64,000 nucleotides of DNA. Origin: an uncultured Bacteroidota bacterium (GTDB lineage: Bacteria; Bacteroidota; Bacteroidia; B-17B0; Aurantibacillaceae). The notes beneath the pieces were generated by a model, which was given only the letters and a program-made list of their open reading frames with translations, was not told the origin of the DNA and did no database searches. Numbering within the stretch: position 1 is the stretch's first letter; each line of letters opens with the position of its first letter. Shown piece after piece: positions 4,454 to 62,000 of this stretch. The stretch covers positions 124,001 to 188,000 of the forward strand of contig CAITNS010000043.1 of assembly GCA_903893815.1 (NCBI GenBank), written 5' to 3'. A program made the position numbers and the translations under genes.

Positions 4454-5008
4454 ATGGATAATACATATACACTGTCTGTTTTTACAGAAGATAAAATAGG
4501 ATTACTAAATCGGGTAACAATTATTTTTACTCGCCGACATATAAACATTGAAAGCATCACTGCCAGCGAAAGTGAAGTGAAAGGAATTTATCGCTACACT
4601 ATTGTAATAACTGTTTCGCAAGAGCAAGTAGAAAAATTAGTTGGTCAAATAGAAAAACAAGTGGAAGTTTTAAAAGCATTTTATCATATTAATAATGACA
4701 TTTTATCCCGAGAAATAGCACTTTACAAAGTATCTGCAGAGGCCTTAAAAGAAAATGAATTATTTACACGTATTGTAAATGAAAATCATGCAAAAATATT
4801 AAGCATTGCTCCTGAATATATTGTGATAGAAAAAACTGGAGATGAAAGAGAAATTCTACATTTATTTAATGATTTAGAAAAATTTGGGATTTTAGAGTTT
4901 GTAAGAAGTGGAAGAGTAGCGATTACCAAGCCAATGAAAACATTAAATACGTTTTTAAAAGAAGTAGAAAATAACAGTAAAACAGTAATTAAACATTTTA
5001 GTAAATAA
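4454..5008 (+). CDS. ilvN: Acetolactate synthase, small regulatory subunit
   Basis: Regulatory partner of IlvB that confers valine feedback inhibition. The first roughly 75 residues form an ACT domain (LSVFTEDKIGLLNRVTIIFTRR, then NIESITASES). A C-terminal domain typical of the longer, roughly 160-185-residue small subunits follows. Its position directly behind ilvB is the usual arrangement. The gene ends just before the hairpin array that precedes ilvC. Confidence 0.93.
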   Translation: MDNTYTLSVFTEDKIGLLNRVTIIFTRRHINIESITASESEVKGIYRYTIVITVSQEQVEKLVGQIEKQVEVLKAFYHINNDILSREIALYKVSAEALKENELFTRIVNENHAKILSIAPEYIVIEKTGDEREILHLFNDLEKFGILEFVRSGRVAITKPMKTLNTFLKEVENNSKTVIKHFSK

Positions 5009-5012
5009 AAAA

Positions 5013-5100
5013 ATATGAAATAACCATGTTGCCGTTAGTGATAGTATTAATAGATATAACATGGTTATCGCATATGACAATTAAAAATAATAAAATAAAC
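5013..5100 (+). repeat. Hairpin leader element, copy 1 (ilvN-ilvC gap)
   Basis: The left arm atatgaaataaccatgtt (5013-5030) pairs with aacatggttatcgcatat (5058-5075) with two mismatches over 18 bases. A conserved tail, catatgacaattaaaa, follows. The left arm contains ATG-AAA-TAA, a two-codon start-stop frame, at 5015-5023. The unit is about 88 bases and abuts copy 2. Being between two co-directional operon genes, it would be transcribed with them. Confidence 0.75.
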
Positions 5101-5190
5101 ATATGAAATAGCCATGTGCCTGAACGCACAAACACAAATGAAGATACATGGCGTATACCATATGACAATTAAAAAAATAAATATCTACAT
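5101..5190 (+). repeat. Hairpin leader element, copy 2 (directly before ilvC)
   Basis: The arm atatgaaatagccatgt (5101-5117) pairs with acatggcgtataccatat (5146-5163). The left arm again contains a start-stop frame, ATG-AAA-TAG, at 5103. The loop includes acacaaatgaagata, shared with the copy at 13983. The tail catatgacaattaaaaaaat runs into ctacat, so the ilvC start (ATGAAA) falls where the next unit would begin. Confidence 0.75.
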
Positions 5191-6660
5191 ATGAAAAACT
5201 ATTTCAACACGCTACCACTTAGATTGCAGTTAGAACAATTAGGTGTTTGCGAATTTATGGATCAATCCGAATTTGCTGACGGAATTGCTGCGCTTAAAGA
5301 AAAAAAAATTGTGATTGTTGGCTGTGGCGCTCAAGGTTTAAATCAGGGTTTAAACATGCGTGACTCTGGTTTAGATATTTCTTATGCACTTCGCGCCGAA
5401 GCCATTCAACAAAAAAGAGTTTCTTATACAAATGCTTTTGATAATGGTTTTAAAGTAGGAACTTATGAAGAATTAATTCCTACAGCTGATTTAGTTTGCA
5501 ACCTAACACCAGATAAACAACACACATCTGTTGTAAAAGTAATCATGCCTTTAATGAAAAAAGGTTCTACCTTATCGTATTCTCATGGCTTTAATATTGT
5601 AGAAGAAGGAATGCAAATTCGAAAAGATATCACTGTAATTATGTGCGCTCCAAAATGCCCGGGTTCTGAAGTTCGCGAAGAGTTTAAAAGAGGATTTGGT
5701 GTGCCAACTCTTATAGCAGTTCATCCGGAAAATGATCCTAATGCGCAAGGTTTTATTCAAGCAAAAGCTTATGCTGTAGCAACTGGTGGTCATAAAGCGG
5801 GGGTTTTAAATTCTTCATTTGTTGCAGAAGTAAAATCAGATTTAATGGGCGAACAAACTATACTTTGTGGAATGCTTCAAACAGGTTCAATTTTATGTTT
5901 TGATAAAATGGTTGAAAAGGGAATTGAACCAGAATACGCTTCAAAATTAGTTCAATATGGTTGGGAAACTATTACTGAAGCCTTGAAACATGGGGGAATT
6001 ACAAATATGATGGATCGTTTATCGAACCCGTCAAAAATAAAAGCGTATGAATTAGCAGAAGAATTAAAGAACATTATGCGCCCATTATTTCAAAAACATA
6101 TGGACGATATTCTTTCAGGAGAATTTTCAAAAAACATGATGGCTGATTGGGCTAATGATGATATTAATTTATTGACTTGGAGAGCTGCAACTGCTGAAAC
6201 TATTTTTGAAAAAACTCCCGCAACTAACGATTCAATTTCTGAACAAGAATATTTTGATAATGGTGTTTTGATGATTGCAATGGTGAAAGCAGGCGTTGAA
6301 TTAGCTTTTGAAACCATGACTGAATCAGGTATTATTGAAGAATCTGCCTACTATGAATCACTACATGAATTGCCATTAATAGCTAATACTGTAGCACGTA
6401 AAAAGTTATATGAAATGAATCGAATTATTTCTGATACGGCAGAATATGGTTGCTATTTATTTGATCATGCATGCAAACCTTTATTAAAGGACTTTATGAA
6501 AACTGTGGATTCTAATGTTATTGGAAAGTCTTTTGCAACTTCCAATGCGGTTGATAATAAATTATTGATTTCTGTGAATCAAAGTATCCGAAATCATCCT
6601 ATTGAAGAAGTAGGTAAATGGTTAAGAGAATCCATGACTGAAATGAAAAAGATAGGGTAA
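5191..6660 (+). CDS. ilvC: Ketol-acid reductoisomerase, long (class II) form
   Basis: NADPH-dependent isomeroreductase converting acetolactate and acetohydroxybutyrate to the dihydroxy acids used by IlvD. The 489-residue length marks the class II form with a duplicated C-terminal knotted domain. The Rossmann site is [17 protein letters not shown] near residue 45. NLTPDKQH and the [14 protein letters not shown] block follow, with the metal-binding acidic residues in the helical half. It starts at the boundary of the hairpin repeats, is separated by 182 bases from ilvN, and may be regulated apart from the upstream genes. Confidence 0.96.
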
Positions 6661-8014: not shown

Positions 8015-11000
8015 ATGAATAAGTATTTTCTATCGTTTTTTGCCATTGTTTTTAGTATATCTGGCGTACTAGCAAAAAAAGTTTATGTGAACGATAATTC
8101 AACAACTGGAGATATTTACACTTCTGCAATTGGTGCCGCTGGTAATAATGGTACAACAACTGCTACTCCAAAATCATTGTTATTAGACGCAATTAGTGTT
8201 GCTGCTTTAGGCGATACAATATATATTGATGCAGGTTCCTACAATGAAGCAAATATAAATATTACATTGAATGGACTAAAAATATTTGGAGCAGGCTATA
8301 ATGCAACAGTTTTTGATCATTTATTTGCTGGACCCACCTCCGATTATTTTTTATATATTAATGCAAACAATGTAACTATTAAGGATCTAAAGGTAACTCG
8401 TTATAGCAATCAAGGTACTCAAGCGCCTGGTCATAGTGGTCAAGCAATTACAATTGGCGGAGGGGCAACTCCAATTACAGGAGTATTAATAGAAAATATA
8501 CAAGCAATATTAAATGGCCAATCAGGCGGAAATCCTGCAATTTCTGTTTTAGCTAGAACAACTGCTACAATTACAGGCGGCGGAAGTTTTTGTAATACAG
8601 CAGGAACAGCATATACTGGTGGAGTTGAAGCGTTTGGACAAAACATCAACTTATTAATTACTGATTATCTTTTAGGGAATAATTACAAGGTTGGATCATT
8701 TGATGGTGGTGGATTAAGAATAGAAGGTGATAATACAACATTAGTGACAGTTAAGAGAACGTTAATTTCAAAAAATATTGCATCTCAAGGTGGCGGTATT
8801 TCTGTTATTAATGGGGATTTAAAGATGTATGATTGTGTTATTGATGCTAATTCTGCAGGTCAGGTATCAACAAATATTTATGGCGGTGGTGTTTATATTA
8901 GTGCAGGAAATGTTTGGTTTTCAAGATGCTACTTTAAAAATAATTTTCAAGCAAATGGGACCTTAAGAGGTGGCGCTATTTCTGCTCGCTATTTTGCAAC
9001 TGGTAGTTTTTCTACAAATAAAACTATTAATGCTACAATTGATTCTTGTGTGTTTCAAAATAATTCACCAGGCGGAGCAGGTAGGGATATATACGGTGCA
9101 AGTGGATTTGGCAACGCTTGTAATATTACGGCAAGAGATTGCCAGTTTTTAACTGCTGGTAATTTTAATATTTTTAGTGATGGTGCTTCACCTGCTACTA
9201 GTATTAATGTCACTTATTTCGGAACACTTCCCACATCAAGTGGTTCAAATGTTACACGTACTTTAAGTACAAATACATTATACACACCACCTTCATTAGT
9301 TCCAGAGTATTCGGGTAATTGTCCTAACATTTTTATTGGACCATGTACACCCACAGTTTCAATTTTATCTGTAAGTAGTCCTACGTTGTGTATTGGAAAT
9401 AGTTCCGTAATAACACCAACAGCAATCCCACAATCAGCTTCATCTTATACATTAGCAAGTGCAACAGAAACATTAACATCTTTCCCTTTTACTGTTAACC
9501 CAACTGTAACAACTACTTATAGTTTAACAGGAACTAGTGCAGCTGGTTGTATAAGTAGTAATACTGCTACAACGACAATAGTTGTAAATTCTTTGCCTAC
9601 GGTTTCAATATCTTCTTCTTCTTCAACATTAACTTGTAGTTCTCCTTCTTTATCGCTTAACGCTTCGGGAGGCGGCACTTATGTGTGGTCAGGAGCAGGG
9701 ATAACATCAGGTAGCACAACAGCAAGCCCAACCGTAAATTTACCAGGAACTTATAACGTAACAGTAACGGCACCTAACGGATGTACAGCAACAGCAAGTA
9801 CTGCTATTACGCAAAACACAACTGCACCGACAGCAGACGCATCAAATACAAGTACTTTAACATGTACCACAACGACAGCGCAATTAACTGGCACAGGTGG
9901 CGGAACTTATTCCTGGTCAGGAACAGGAATCACATCAGGTAGTACCGCAGCAAACCCAATCGTAAATTTACCAGGAACTTATAACGTAACGGTTACTGCT
10001 TCTAATGGATGTACAGCAACAGCAAGTACTGCTATTACGCAAAACATAACTGCGCCAACAGCAGGCGCATCGAATACGAGCACCCTAACATGTACTACAA
10101 CGGCAGCAGTTTTAACAGGAACAGGCGGTGGAACCTATTTGTGGTCAGGAGCAGGTATAACATCAGGTAGCACAACAGCAACACCAACCGTAAACTTACC
10201 AGGAACTTATAACGTAACGGTTACTGCAGCGAATGGATGTACAGCAACAGCAAGTACTGCTATTACGCAAAACACAACTGCACCGACAGCAGGCGCATCA
10301 AATACAAGTACCCTAACATGTACTACAACGGCAGCAGTTTTAACAGGAACAGGCGGTGGAACTTATTCCTGGTCAGGAGTAGGAATAACATCAGGTAGCA
10401 CAACAGCAACACCAACCGTAAACTTACCAGGAACTTATAACGTAACAGTAACGGCAGCCAATGGTTGTTCAGCAACAGCAAATACAACCATCACACAAAA
10501 CACAACAGCACCAACAGCTAACGCTTCAAATACTAGCACATTAAACTGTACAACATTAACAGCTAACTTAACAGGAACAGGTGGAGGAACGTATAATTGG
10601 TCAGGCCCAGGCATTACAGCAGGAGGAGCAACAGCAATACCAACGGTTAATTTACCTGGAACTTATAACTTAACCGTAACAGCAGCTAACGGTTGTACCG
10701 CAACAGCTAACACCACTATTACACAAAATACAATTACGCCATCTGTATCAACAGCTACTAGTGGTGTATTAAATTGTACCTTAACATCAGTTAATGCGAG
10801 CGCAACGACGACAACAAGCCCAGTAAGTTACAATTGGACAGGAGCAGGTATCACAGCAGGAGGCACCACATCAACACCAACGATTAATGTAGGAGGAACG
10901 TATAATTATACTGTAACTAATACAACAAACGGTTGTCAAACAACAGGAAGTGTAGCAGTATCCCAAAACACAACAGCCCCATCAGCGTCGGCAGCAGGCG

Positions 11001-13891
11001 GAACGTTAACCTGTGCAAATACTTCTACAACATTAGTAGGAGGACCAGCATCAGGAGTTACTTATTCTTGGTCTGGAGCAGGATTATCAGGAGCAACAAA
11101 CTTAGCGAACGCGACGGCTACTATAACAGGAAGCTATACATTAGTAACAACAAGTACCACCAACGGCTGTACAAATACAGCAGTAGCAACAGTAACTAAT
11201 AATACAGTAATACCAACAGCCAATGCAGGATCGACACAAACTTTAGTGTGTGGTGTAAGTTCAGTTACTTTAACAGGAGCAGGAACACCATTAGGATCAA
11301 CAGCTAATTGGTTAGGAGGAGTAACTAGTCCAACAACGTTTACAACAACGGCGGGTGCACCAGGCACTTATACCTTGGTGGTAACACATCCAACATCAGG
11401 ATGTACAAGTACATCTACTGTCGCTGTGAGTTCATCAACCGATGTACCGCAAGCAACCGTAAACGCTATAACAAACTCTATTACGTGTACAAATAGTGTA
11501 GTCGCTATAGGAGTAACTTTAAGTAATACAGATCCAGTATCTTATACTTGGACAGGCCCAGGAATAGCAGGCACAAATAATACAGCAAGTACCACAGCAA
11601 CAGTTGCAGGAACGTATAGTGTCACAATTACAAACACCATATCTAACTGTCAGTCTGTATTTAATGTAGTTGTACCAACCAATACAAATAACCCAGTAAC
11701 AGCGGCAAACAGTTCAAATACGATTACCTGTTCAACAACAAACATAACAGTATCGGCAACACCAACAGGTACTAATTATGGTTATGCATGGTCTGGACCA
11801 GGAACAATTACTAATGGAACAACCGCAAACCCAGGAGTAAATGTAGGAGGAACTTATACCGTAACTATCACCGATAATATCAATGGATGTATAGGAACAG
11901 GCACCGTAAACGTTGCAACCAATACAGTAATTCCAACGATGACTTTAACACCAAGTAGTTTAACCACAACTTGCGCTAATCCAACAACCACTTTATTAGC
12001 AACGAGTAGTGCAGATCCAGATGTAAATTATGTATGGACAGCACCAGCAACAGGAAGCTTAAACAATACAACGATTAATAATCCGGTAGCTAATGGTAGC
12101 GGTGTATTTACAGTACAAGTGACTAATACAGTTAGTGGATGTGTATCAGCAACAGAAACGGTAACGATTACGGCAGATGCTAATGTACCAACCTTAAACG
12201 CAACTGCAAGTAATACAACCATCTGTTCCAATCAAACCACAACCTTATCAATTACTGGAGCAGACACGTATACATGGAGTACGTTAGAGACGGCTACGAC
12301 AATAACGGTTAGCCCATCAACAACAACGACTTATAGTGTGTCAGGAACCAATACCTTAACAGGTTGTTCAAACATTACGAACGTAACGGTGAATGTCACG
12401 CCAACACCAACGGTGAACGTATCAGCATCAGCTATTACAATCTGCGAAGGCAATACAACGACCTTAACGTTTACTGGCGCTACTAATTATACAGTAACGA
12501 ACCCAAGTCAAACTACAACAGGTACCATTGTATTAACACCAACAGTACAAACAACTTACACCATAGTAGGAGAATCATCCAACTGTGCAAGTACTACCCA
12601 AACCATCACGATTGATGTAAATGCTTTACCAATATTAGCGACATCTAATGCAACCACTTGTGCAGGAGTAGCAACTACACTATCAGCCACAGGAGCAGAT
12701 ACCTATAACTGGCAACCAACAGGAGCTACTACAAATACAACAAGTGTATCGCCAACAACCAACACAACATATACAGTAACAGGTACTAATACGGTAACAG
12801 GTTGTACATCTACTATAACAACAGCAGATATAACAGTTAACCAATTACCTAACATCACAGTAAGTGCTAATCCAAACACAACCTGTACAAATGGTACGGT
12901 TAATTTAAATGCTGCAACTACAGGCACAACTGCTATTACAAATTATACTTGGACATTAGGTAATGGAGTAGATAACACGAACCAAAATCAAGGAAGCATC
13001 ACGTTCCCAGCAAGCGGATTAACAACTGGAACGTATACCTATACAGTAGTAGCAACGGATGCAAATGGCTGTGTGTCGTTACAAGCAACCACGACTTTAG
13101 ATATAATAGATACACCAAACGCCAATTTTGATTTAAGTGATTTATCTATCTGTCAGAATGAAAACGGCACCATCAGCATCAACACCCCACAAACGGGAGT
13201 GACTTATGATTGGAACATTAACGGACAAGCCGTTACGAATACCAATCCATTAACGGTACCATCCACTATCACGAGTGCAGCAGGAACTTATACCGTAAAT
13301 GTGATAGCAGGTATAGGCACTTGTACTAACACGGCAGCAAATACACTAACCGTAAACGCCCTACCAACCGTAGCTTTAGTTAACTCAATTACATCAGCTT
13401 GTGTGAATACAGCTGCGCAATTAGATGTAGCAGGACCAAACAGCACATACACATACAACTGGACAAACGGCTCAAACACAGCAACGGGACCAAACTTAAA
13501 TGTGAACCCATTAACTCAAGCAACAGCAGGAAGCTACACTGTAACTGCTACAGATGTAAACGGCTGTGTCAACAGAACGATAGGAGCGATAGATGCACAA
13601 GAATGTATTACAGAAGTGCCAGAGATATTTACACCAAATGGTGATGGTAAGAATGATGGTTTTATGATCAAGAACATCGAGAACTTCCCAGACAACAAGT
13701 TAAAAATCTTTAACCGTTGGGGTAACTTGGTTTACCAAAAAAATGGTTACTTAAATGAGTTCGAAGGATTTGCGAACACAGGCGATCAAGTAGGAAAATC
13801 TAAATTACCATCAGGAACCTATTATGTGATCTTAGACTACGGAGACGAGAAAACAGAAACATATAACGGGATATTAGTATTGCAATATTAA
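8015..13891 (+). CDS. Giant secreted repeat adhesin-like protein, type IX type B sorting domain
   Basis: A 1958-residue exported protein. A signal peptide (about residues 1-20, ending VLAK) is followed by a right-handed beta-helix-like region (about 20-430) with NNVTIKDLKV-type rungs. A long array of Ser/Thr-rich immunoglobulin- or PKD-like modules comes next, and the C-terminus is a gliding-motility type sorting domain (EIFTPNGDGKNDGF, then FNRWGNLVYQ). Five units of exactly 76 residues start their NGC motif at DNA positions 9781, 10009, 10237, 10465 and 10693; each has two cysteines (LTC and NGC). Known type B cargos are exported by the type IX system with a PorP/SprF partner, which follows here. 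Its ligand is unknown; an adhesin or gliding-surface role is inferred. Confidence 0.85.
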   Translation: MNKYFLSFFAIVFSISGVLAKKVYVNDNSTTGDIYTSAIGAAGNNGTTTATPKSLLLDAISVAALGDTIYIDAGSYNEANINITLNGLKIFGAGYNATVFDHLFAGPTSDYFLYINANNVTIKDLKVTRYSNQGTQAPGHSGQAITIGGGATPITGVLIENIQAILNGQSGGNPAISVLARTTATITGGGSFCNTAGTAYTGGVEAFGQNINLLITDYLLGNNYKVGSFDGGGLRIEGDNTTLVTVKRTLISKNIASQGGGISVINGDLKMYDCVIDANSAGQVSTNIYGGGVYISAGNVWFSRCYFKNNFQANGTLRGGAISARYFATGSFSTNKTINATIDSCVFQNNSPGGAGRDIYGASGFGNACNITARDCQFLTAGNFNIFSDGASPATSINVTYFGTLPTSSGSNVTRTLSTNTLYTPPSLVPEYSGNCPNIFIGPCTPTVSILSVSSPTLCIGNSSVITPTAIPQSASSYTLASATETLTSFPFTVNPTVTTTYSLTGTSAAGCISSNTATTTIVVNSLPTVSISSSSSTLTCSSPSLSLNASGGGTYVWSGAGITSGSTTASPTVNLPGTYNVTVTAPNGCTATASTAITQNTTAPTADASNTSTLTCTTTTAQLTGTGGGTYSWSGTGITSGSTAANPIVNLPGTYNVTVTASNGCTATASTAITQNITAPTAGASNTSTLTCTTTAAVLTGTGGGTYLWSGAGITSGSTTATPTVNLPGTYNVTVTAANGCTATASTAITQNTTAPTAGASNTSTLTCTTTAAVLTGTGGGTYSWSGVGITSGSTTATPTVNLPGTYNVTVTAANGCSATANTTITQNTTAPTANASNTSTLNCTTLTANLTGTGGGTYNWSGPGITAGGATAIPTVNLPGTYNLTVTAANGCTATANTTITQNTITPSVSTATSGVLNCTLTSVNASATTTTSPVSYNWTGAGITAGGTTSTPTINVGGTYNYTVTNTTNGCQTTGSVAVSQNTTAPSASAAGGTLTCANTSTTLVGGPASGVTYSWSGAGLSGATNLANATATITGSYTLVTTSTTNGCTNTAVATVTNNTVIPTANAGSTQTLVCGVSSVTLTGAGTPLGSTANWLGGVTSPTTFTTTAGAPGTYTLVVTHPTSGCTSTSTVAVSSSTDVPQATVNAITNSITCTNSVVAIGVTLSNTDPVSYTWTGPGIAGTNNTASTTATVAGTYSVTITNTISNCQSVFNVVVPTNTNNPVTAANSSNTITCSTTNITVSATPTGTNYGYAWSGPGTITNGTTANPGVNVGGTYTVTITDNINGCIGTGTVNVATNTVIPTMTLTPSSLTTTCANPTTTLLATSSADPDVNYVWTAPATGSLNNTTINNPVANGSGVFTVQVTNTVSGCVSATETVTITADANVPTLNATASNTTICSNQTTTLSITGADTYTWSTLETATTITVSPSTTTTYSVSGTNTLTGCSNITNVTVNVTPTPTVNVSASAITICEGNTTTLTFTGATNYTVTNPSQTTTGTIVLTPTVQTTYTIVGESSNCASTTQTITIDVNALPILATSNATTCAGVATTLSATGADTYNWQPTGATTNTTSVSPTTNTTYTVTGTNTVTGCTSTITTADITVNQLPNITVSANPNTTCTNGTVNLNAATTGTTAITNYTWTLGNGVDNTNQNQGSITFPASGLTTGTYTYTVVATDANGCVSLQATTTLDIIDTPNANFDLSDLSICQNENGTISINTPQTGVTYDWNINGQAVTNTNPLTVPSTITSAAGTYTVNVIAGIGTCTNTAANTLTVNALPTVALVNSITSACVNTAAQLDVAGPNSTYTYNWTNGSNTATGPNLNVNPLTQATAGSYTVTATDVNGCVNRTIGAIDAQECITEVPEIFTPNGDGKNDGFMIKNIENFPDNKLKIFNRWGNLVYQKNGYLNEFEGFANTGDQVGKSKLPSGTYYVILDYGDEKTETYNGILVLQY
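9553..10700 (+). repeat. Tandem 228-bp repeats inside the adhesin gene
   Basis: The NGC codons recur at exactly 228-base intervals (9781, 10009, 10237, 10465, 10693). Long stretches between them are nearly identical, for example caacagcaagtactgct and taccaggaacttataacgt. Later modules have diverged. High identity in these units and not in the rest suggests recent duplication or gene conversion. Copy number could vary between strains or be collapsed in short-read assemblies. Confidence 0.85.
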
Positions 13892-13982: not shown

Positions 13983-14073
13983 ATATGAAATAGCCATGTT
14001 TGCTAAAACACAAACACAAATGAAGATAAACTGGCTAAACCATATGACAACTAAAAAAAAATAATATCTACAT
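13983..14073 (+). repeat. Hairpin leader element, copy 3 (directly before porP)
   Basis: Same plan as the two ilvC copies. The arm atatgaaatagccatgttt (from 13983, with ATG-AAA-TAG) pairs with aaactggctaaaccatat. The loop shares acacaaacacaaatgaagata with copy 2. The tail is catatgacaactaaaa, ending tatctacat directly before the porP ATG. As at ilvC, the gene start ATGAAA falls at the unit boundary. Confidence 0.7.
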
Positions 14074-15000
14074 ATGAAAAAACAAATAGCCTTAACGTTA
14101 AGCTCACTGTTACTATTACTCATAGGAACGCTGAAAGCTCAACAAGAAACACAGCACAGTATGTATTTCTTTAATCCTATATTATTGAATCCAGCCTATG
14201 CAGGAAGTCAGGAAGCAGTGCAAATAACAGGAACGGTGCGTGACCAGTGGACCAATTTAAAAGGCGCGCCTAAAACGCAAGTATTGTCTATTCACTCGCC
14301 ATTAAAAACAGAAAACATTGGAATTGGTTTAACGGTGTTGAATGACCAATTAGGTGTGACTAAAAACACAGGCGTGTATGCAGATTTAGCCTATAGCGTT
14401 AAAGTGAATAAGAAAAACAACCGTTTAGCATTTGGTGTAAAAGCAGGCGTTGATTTTTTCAGACAAGACTTTTCTAACTTAAGAATTAACGATAATACGG
14501 ATGAAGTTTATTTAGAAGGATTTCAATACAAAAAGAATTTGTTTAATGTTGGTGCAGGCTTATATTATTATGGAAAAAGACATTACATCGGAATCTCCAC
14601 CCCACGCTTAGTAAAGAACAAAATTAATTTAGCAGCAGATCAATCCGCTTTACAAGAGAATCACTACTATGCTTTTGGAGGCATTGTTGTTAAATTAAAT
14701 CCTGCTATTAATATGCGCCCATCCTTTATTGTGAAATATGTAAACAATGCGCCTTTATCTATTGAAGGAAACTTATCCTTTTTGTTTTATGAAAAATTAT
14801 GGATAGGAGCGATGTACCGTCATAAAGCAGCAACTGGCTTAAACATCATGTACAACATTAGTCAGAATTTAAGAATAGGCTACGCTTACGATTATCAATT
14901 AACCTCTTTACAAAAATTTAGTGTAGGCTCTCATGAAATTATGATTAGCTATGATTTAAGAAGTAAAGCCAAAGGATTTAAATCGCCACGCTACTTTTAG
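14074..15000 (+). CDS. PorP/SprF family type IX secretion membrane protein
   Basis: Outer-membrane beta-barrel protein of 308 residues, with a signal peptide ending LKAQQ. The family hallmark FNPILLNPAYAGSQE is near the mature N-terminus, and GAMYRH and IGYAYDY strands are near the C-terminus. Family members such as SprF are needed for secretion or surface attachment of type B cargo and are often encoded right after it. The gene lies 182 bases downstream of the type B adhesin and upstream of an OmpA-like protein, so a dedicated partner role is likely. Confidence 0.9.
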   Translation: MKKQIALTLSSLLLLLIGTLKAQQETQHSMYFFNPILLNPAYAGSQEAVQITGTVRDQWTNLKGAPKTQVLSIHSPLKTENIGIGLTVLNDQLGVTKNTGVYADLAYSVKVNKKNNRLAFGVKAGVDFFRQDFSNLRINDNTDEVYLEGFQYKKNLFNVGAGLYYYGKRHYIGISTPRLVKNKINLAADQSALQENHYYAFGGIVVKLNPAINMRPSFIVKYVNNAPLSIEGNLSFLFYEKLWIGAMYRHKAATGLNIMYNISQNLRIGYAYDYQLTSLQKFSVGSHEIMISYDLRSKAKGFKSPRYF

Positions 15001-43247: not shown

Positions 43248-43573
43248 GAGTTGATTCTTTTTTTTTAAATAATAATTAATTTTTTTTCATCTCATTTTTT
43301 CATCTCATTTTCCGTTTTAAATAAAATTTATTTTTGTGAATGATGTTTTATAAAAATACGACCTCTTGAAACACCTTTAAAATCAATGCATACAGAGTGT
43401 TTGTTTTTTGTATGATGTTTTGTTTTTTCATATTGTTAATTTTAGTTGAGGTATTGTAAAACGGTATTAACAATTTCAACAATTTTATGTTAATAAATTA
43501 ACTCCTTGGAAATTAGTTAGCGTTAATAAATTTATTTACTTCGTAGTAACAAAAATCTTAAAAACAAAAAACC
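43248..43573. other. AT-rich intergenic region before the histone-like gene
   Basis: 326 bases, very AT-rich, with ttcatctcattt twice near its start. No gene or strong hairpin seen. It should hold the promoter of the gene at 43574. Confidence 0.5.
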
Positions 43574-43750
43574 ATGGCAACAACTAAAAAAGCAGCTCCT
43601 AAAAAAGCAGTAAAAAAAGCAGCTCCAAAAAAAGCAGCAGCTAAAAAAGCAGTTAAAAAAGCAGCTCCTAAAAAAGCAGTTAAAAAAGCAGCTCCTAAAA
43701 AAGCAGTTAAAAAAGCAGCTCCTAAAAAAGCAGCAGCTAAGAAAAAGTAA
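43574..43750 (+). CDS. Small Lys/Ala/Pro histone-like protein
   Basis: A 58-residue protein built almost wholly from K, A and P with a few V and T: MATTKKAAPKKAVKKAAPKK and repeats of the same units. It resembles the tails of histone H1 and bacterial Hc1-like proteins and very probably binds nucleic acid through charge. It has its own terminator. No enzymatic motif. The opposite-strand open frame over the same bases is an artefact of the repeat. Some Bacteroidota carry similar short genes; I cannot name a characterised one. Confidence 0.75.
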   Translation: MATTKKAAPKKAVKKAAPKKAAAKKAVKKAAPKKAVKKAAPKKAVKKAAPKKAAAKKK

Positions 43751-61715: not shown

Positions 61716-61734
61716 CTTTCAAATTTACACTTCT

Positions 61735-62000
61735 TTTTTAATATTTATGTTTAGTAATAGGAACACAGATTTGGCGAATTAAGCAGATTAGCACGGATTA
61801 ATTTTGTATGACTTTAAATAAATAATCAGTGTAAATCAGTTGTGTCTGTTGGATCCGCGTTCCAATTTTTTTAATATTTATGTTTAGTAATAGGAACACA
61901 GATTTGGCGAATTAAGCAGATTAGCACGGATTAATTTTGTATGACTTTAGATAAATATTCAGTGTAAATCAGGTCCATCTGTTAAATCCGCGTTCCAATT
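61735..62000. repeat. Tandem duplication of a 133-bp inverted-repeat unit
   Basis: The unit beginning tttaatatttatgtttagtaatagg occurs twice with a period of exactly 133 bases (taggaacac at 61758 and 61891), differing at a few positions. Each unit has taggaacacagatttggcg at one end and ggatccgcgttcc or aaatccgcgttcc at the other, near complements. Related to the element at 38083. It separates the btuF- and btuC-like genes. Confidence 0.85.

Follow-up and report, generated by a model that had tools for sequence, protein, structure and literature searches.

The two 88-nt repeats between ilvN and ilvC in an uncultured Bacteroidota bacterium belong to a family whose members are very probably small, non-autonomous mobile leaders that insert at start codons. 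Each element is ~85-95 nt long (104 nt in a G014 unit with a nested palindrome) and has two parts, an imperfect hairpin and, after it, a tail that is A/T-rich and unstructured. A literature search found no description of the ~88-nt repeat, and a dispersed repeat family with units ahead of starts in many Bacteroidia is apparently undescribed. The window, by which I mean the whole 64,000-nt stretch of DNA that was analysed, holds the ilvC pair and a third unit.

The ilv cluster of the window runs ilvE-ilvD-ilvB-ilvN-ilvC-ilvA. Its gaps are 10-20 nt except that between ilvN and ilvC, which is 182 nt because two 88-nt units sit inside; without both units, the ilvN stop would lie 6 nt from the start ATG. 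An earlier note on this DNA had described two hairpin units in the gap, the second ending at the ilvC ATG, and both the sequence and the folds bear this out, save that the units, put there at 88-90 bases, are each exactly 88 nt (Table 1). The sequence CATATGAAA recurs at the boundary between the units and again where ilvC starts. The ATG-AAA-TAA that opens unit 1 is the presumed displaced start position of ilvC, and the A-rich tail of unit 2 would be the gene's present context for the initiation of translation. Bacteroidota mostly initiate without Shine-Dalgarno sequences. Since the units part ilvN from ilvC, which would almost touch if the gap were empty, a change in the translational coupling of the two genes is predicted.

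Table 1. Positions, within the window, of the units, their parts and the neighbouring genes.
Feature	Position	Strand	Basis
ilvN, acetolactate synthase small subunit	4454..5008	+	Pfam ALS_ss_C; stop-to-first-unit-ATG 6 nt
Hairpin of unit 1: ATATG...CATAT base, internal loop, ATAACCATGTT/AACATGGTTAT stem	5013..5075	+	fold, family covariation
Unit 1 (older copy), ATGAAATAACC...AAACAT, hairpin and A/T-rich tail	5015..5102	+	sequence, fold
ATG-AAA-TAA of unit 1, joined to old ilvC upstream flank	5015..5023	+	empty sites in relatives
Hairpin of unit 2: CATATG...CATATG base, TAGCCATGT/ACATGGCgTA stem	5100..5164	+	fold
Unit 2 (young, canonical), ATGAAATAGCC...ATATCTACAT, right end abuts ilvC ATG	5103..5190	+	sequence
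ATG-AAA-TAG, unit 1/unit 2 junction	5103..5111	+	sequence
A-rich tail of unit 2, ACAATTAAAAAAATAAATATCTACAT, unpaired	5165..5190	+	sequence; unpaired in predicted fold
ilvC, ketol-acid reductoisomerase, ATG at 5191	5191..6660	+	Pfam KARI_N 6.1e-53, KARI_C 1.4e-47
Third unit (89 nt), ahead of PorP/SprF-family gene at 14074	13985..14073	+	

Other repeats occur in the window. Immediately before the third unit and its PorP/SprF gene comes a frame of 1958 aa (8015-13891), which contains five copies of a 228-nt tandem repeat (9668-10790). Two adjoining 133-nt copies, 94% identical, lie at 61734-61999, and short tandem repeats at 43543-43744 fall in an apparent lysine/alanine-rich (KKAA-type) coding sequence.

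A whole-genome DNA-similarity search gave 34 matches, the ilvC pair and 33 further places, the best of these at 85-98% identity, and a profile-model search of the same genome (G000) found 49 units at 37 loci. Among its relatives, units are found in 26 of 60 genomes, with 51 in G010, 45 in G014 and none in others. A second model, with an explicit stem, found units in 30 of the 296 genomes of a class-wide sample, spread over many families; a phylum-wide sample gave 13 of 296, every one of them in the class Bacteroidia. An exact-pattern scan of named genomes matched solely metagenome-assembled genomes (MAGs) of Bacteroidota, and the canonical unit had zero matches in phages, plasmids and viral contigs. 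Copies can be strikingly uniform: in G014, a 104-nt unit with an identical nested TCCCGATAGCTATCGGGA palindrome precedes several unrelated genes, and a second set, of identical 85-nt units, likewise stands ahead of unrelated genes. Several contigs end inside or beside unit arrays (C72 of G000 and C44 of G015 at their starts; C21 of G014 and C5 and C73 of G066 at their ends), so the real arrays may exceed their assembled length. The CAMAPT01 records (L282 and others; apparently G010) were deposited as a 'Chitinophaga pinensis' MAG, possibly mislabelled, and in the present analysis that genome apparently groups with the window's genus.

For position, I examined 130 distinct arrays, one of which runs off its contig. 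A start was taken to be the ATG of a frame that either has 50 aa or more or runs off the stretch. By this measure, 112 of the remaining 129 arrays (~87%) terminate at a start codon, nearly all at offset zero, and one more lies ahead of a 43-aa lipoprotein-like frame. About 13% have no recognisable start at their end, and most of the copies away from starts also end in ATGAA. The random scatter with respect to gene starts that the earlier note had named as fatal to its reading is thus not what the arrays present. As a control, the window has 43 ATGAA sites in non-coding sequence, of which 15 are gene starts, a random expectation of ~35%. The excess over this share has a p of about 3e-34, and still about 2e-11 if the share is set at 60%, rough values in that arrays are taken as independent and starts are called simply. 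The motif itself is found at 104 of the 112 element-bearing starts; of the window's 57 starts, 15 have it. Nearly all copies lie in sense orientation ahead of genes; at L020, an inverted unit sits on a CATATG at which the gene on the other side starts. As judged by these counts, there is a target preference for ATGAA and, beyond it, a bias to start codons that sequence does not explain. A preference for sequence being insufficient, the bias calls for selection or for a mechanism specific to starts. As a rule, small mobile repeats settle where harm is slight.

Then there is the evidence of filled and empty sites. For 22 loci, I looked in four relatives for the corresponding gene start and read each one that turned up. 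Most of the loci are empty there, the upstream flank running straight to the ATG. In G003, for example, C65, the site of the window's third copy (C43b) and gapA (C79b) are all empty, and the genome reads TTTTAATTATT joined directly to ATGAAAAAAATAACC at a site where G000 carries a unit. Since unit-free relatives have an intact start and match upstream up to the ATG, insertion at such sites appears to have been precise. The ilvC site is more complicated. There are no units ahead of ilvC in G015, G014, G011, G004, G017 and G019, one in G003 (91% identical to unit 1) and two in G000, and the coding sequence of ilvC pairs G000 with G015 while unit 1 pairs it with G003. These groupings conflict, so insertion and precise loss are inseparable at ilvC, and for the same reason I make no claim of precise excision in G015.

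The dispersed copies and the 112 arrays at starts strongly uphold the idea, also in the earlier note, of a repeat that spread with gene starts, though not by duplicating them: the comparisons favour a mobile element that inserts at start codons over copying of a gene's own start. I propose that the element inserts, sense-oriented, at ATGAA, nearly always at the start codon of a gene. After insertion, the old upstream flank would be joined to the ATGAA at the left of the element, and its A-rich right end would come just before the ATG of the gene, so that the protein is unchanged and an 88-nt structured leader is gained. The sequence ATGAA is found at both ends of the unit, at the left end even where the gene starts with ATGAC (gcvP, sufE), so some of its letters may be the element's own rather than a target duplication. 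A trans-acting enzyme would recognise the folded sense strand, starts would put up with insertion because the tail already offers ribosomes a place to land, and some copies might turn into useful leaders and be retained by selection. It is possible, though I hold it only tentatively, that the machinery of insertion targets translation start codons as such, installing a structured 5' leader and leaving the protein intact. It might do so where the start region is held open by transcription or by ribosomes, or by way of an RNA copy.

The hairpin that such an enzyme would recognise is well marked. The predicted RNA folds have energies of -20.5 kcal/mol for unit 1 of ilvC (z -4.65) and -18.1 kcal/mol for unit 2 (z -3.75), a stability that none of the shuffles equalled, and the joint fold gives two separate hairpins, then the unpaired A-rich tail, then the ilvC ATG. 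When 106 matches are aligned under the explicit stem, 82 cells are compensated, a count attained by none of 500 shuffles, and 92.7% of cells are paired. These matches were not selected for pairing, but their alignment was fitted to the model, and the 23-sequence seed alignment was mostly selected for unbulged stems, so both lean towards structure. Distant genomes present alternative stems that are again complementary: TCCCCATGC/GCATGGGGA, TCGCCAT/ATGGCGA and CATCCAT/ATGGATG. The hairpin is evidently conserved through compensatory changes. Read on the sense strand, the alignment has 39 G-U cells against 9 A-C cells, 15 of the former in a single column where they may be one inherited change; the difference suggests that it is the sense strand that folds. 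Because the two main subtypes have their stems offset from one another, RNAalifold found nothing in the first alignment but an alternative CATATG/CATATG pairing, and the explicit structure took its place.

In the strongest of the rival explanations, the repeat is a mobile cis-regulatory RNA, in which the leader binds a protein, a small RNA or a ligand, the copies constitute a regulon and persist for the sake of regulation, and mobility is secondary. The strong covariation of the stem, the excess of G-U cells with the sense strand folding, and the sense orientation of nearly all copies ahead of genes are what it would lead one to expect. So are three shared sites at which conservation is higher in the leader than in the adjoining coding sequence: a gene in G228 and G437 (98% versus 83%), sufE (94% versus 82%) and unit 1 of ilvC (91% versus 83%). 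At the rimK and lytTR sites, the leader is not consistently the more conserved. These comparisons suggest that selection acts at some shared sites, with some copies possibly functional leaders, and recent insertion of similar units at those sites is also possible. Against a regulon, the genes downstream of units (ilvC, gapA, gcvP, sufE, rimK and those of secreted proteins) have no obvious function in common. Close relatives are empty at most sites, identity within a genome can reflect the youth of copies rather than constraint, and an Rfam covariance-model search over the ilvC units returned nothing at E up to 5. The full Bacteroidetes-type promoter, TTG-N17-23-TAnnTTTG, is found in none of 109 arrays. 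The leader may in itself have a regulatory effect; that regulation is what the copies are for, with mobility secondary, I regard as rather unlikely.

Each ilvC unit does open with ATG-AAA-stop, as the earlier note had it (TAA in one, TAG in the other), and on that frame it had hung the ideas that look-alike starts tune the translation of ilvC or bring about peptidyl-tRNA drop-off. In such a model, output of ilvC would be set by mini-ORFs on which ribosomes are trapped or lose their peptidyl-tRNA. Either ATGAAATAG or ATGAAATAA heads 105 of 145 distinct units, and the left ATG lies behind the old upstream flank and would therefore be usable. But divergent members of the family drop the stop yet keep the hairpin (ATGAACTAT, ATGAAATAT, ATGAAATGG, ATGAAATCC, ATGAAATCG, ATGAAACAT), their third codon being TAT, TAC, TGG, TCC, TCG or CAT. 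Tuning through a frame that is not conserved is highly improbable. On the sequences at hand, the simplest account makes the frame a by-product, in which the left ATGAA meets the old upstream flank and the TAG belongs to the stem.

Still less probable is a bypassing element like that of T4 gene 60 or the yeast mitochondrial byp, by which ribosomes would start at the left ATG-AAA, hop the TAG and the hairpin, and land on the AAA after the gene's ATG. The AAA codons do match on both sides, a stop and a hairpin come immediately after the first, and the protein product would be identical. However, the landing side has an ATG of its own, making the hop unnecessary, and in some genes the second codon after the right ATG begins with AC or GA and mismatches AAA. 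A byp element lies inside coding sequence, whereas the units examined lie at starts or between genes, with an ATG at the 3' end, a second codon that varies and a stop that is not conserved.

Insertion of a mobile leader at start codons would also account for how the units come to stand side by side. The pair at ilvC is a head-to-tail array, as first described, but not a simple tandem duplication: its members differ in age and are 76% alike, unit 1 being at most 78% identical to any copy elsewhere in its genome and unit 2 99% identical to one on another contig. Ordinary replication slippage at the start of ilvC would give equal-length units head-to-tail, and is hardly credible given that divergence, the near-identical copy on another contig, relatives that carry 0 or 1 units, and the dispersed copies that contradict it. 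Within arrays generally, neighbours are often less alike than either is to distant copies, and the younger unit is proximal to the gene in 20 arrays and distal in 5, with 17 ties (two-sided p 0.004). Arrays therefore seem to grow by repeated insertion, each time at the working start codon.

Some units (at L003, L005, L073, L212-L227, L251, L259 and L278) enclose another palindromic repeat, TCCCGATAGCTATCGGGA or a variant of it, which in G014 was duplicated together with its host units. The sufE unit of G003 (L144) has an extra insert in its 3' part that contains the G+C-rich palindrome CCGCGTAACGCGG. A half-element search for an autonomous relative yielded solely a unit with nested palindromes.

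As for the mobilising enzyme, the searches turned up none, and two candidates were rejected, since they do not co-occur with the units. Y1 transposases (PF01797) number four in G000, but there are none in the copy-rich genomes G010 (99% complete, 51 units), G015 and G019; reverse transcriptases (PF00078) are absent from G010 and G015. Tyrosine recombinases are found in all 20 genomes of the genus, at 3-11 matches per genome, and so do not discriminate. The mobiliser could be a host recombinase or a member of another enzyme family.

Landing on a start codon and replacing the region of initiation gives a direct route to the rewiring of expression with the protein untouched, and filled and empty alleles of one gene in relatives are natural experiments on its effect. 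The compact hairpin offers a defined bait for the mobilising enzyme, and models of transcript leaders in Bacteroidia should include the units.

How do the units compare with known systems? Elements of the IS200/IS605 type, like the units, have a short target and no terminal inverted repeats. Their transposition involves recognition of secondary structures in single-stranded DNA (PMC6006769). The units differ from them in encoding no transposase, and the Y1 family is absent from copy-rich genomes. TAACTGA heptamer repeats, of unknown function, are found in Beggiatoaceae, Cyanobacteria and Bacteroidetes, and as direct repeats in Maribeggiatoa lie mostly a few nucleotides upstream of start codons (PMC4679880), but a 7-nt repeat is unrelated in sequence to an 88-nt hairpin unit. 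Mobile promoters, in the account of Matus-Garcia et al. (2012) as cited in PMC8049555, are near-identical DNA upstream of unrelated genes. That description would fit the units, except that these are hairpin leaders ending at ATG, free of a Bacteroidetes-type promoter.

REP sequences and REPINs are short, non-coding, dispersed hairpins, mobilised by the Y1 enzyme RAYT (TnpA-REP) (PMC8049555, PMC3116915). The units are likewise short, non-coding, hairpin-forming, dispersed and non-autonomous, with many similar copies per genome and a conserved stem. They differ in their length of ~88 nt, in having an A-rich tail of their own, in being joined in sense to start codons, and in flourishing where G010, G015 and G019 have no Y1 transposase. 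The REP palindrome carries a GTAG or CGTC tag at one end (PMC3733652); the units lack this tag, and their conserved hairpin foot is ATGAAA/ACCAT. The MITEs (Correia/NEMIS, RUP, ERIC, RPE) are ~100-bp structured, non-autonomous repeats near genes, some of which affect mRNA (PMC2229807). The units too are small, structured, non-autonomous and near genes. However, they begin with ATGAAATAG and end with CTACAT, with no terminal inverted repeat seen: in the alignments, neither of the two ends, ATGAAATAGCC and ATATCTACAT, is the inverted repeat of the other. What the two ends share instead is ATGAA, the start codon itself, and with it goes an extreme bias towards start codons that sets the units apart from MITEs.
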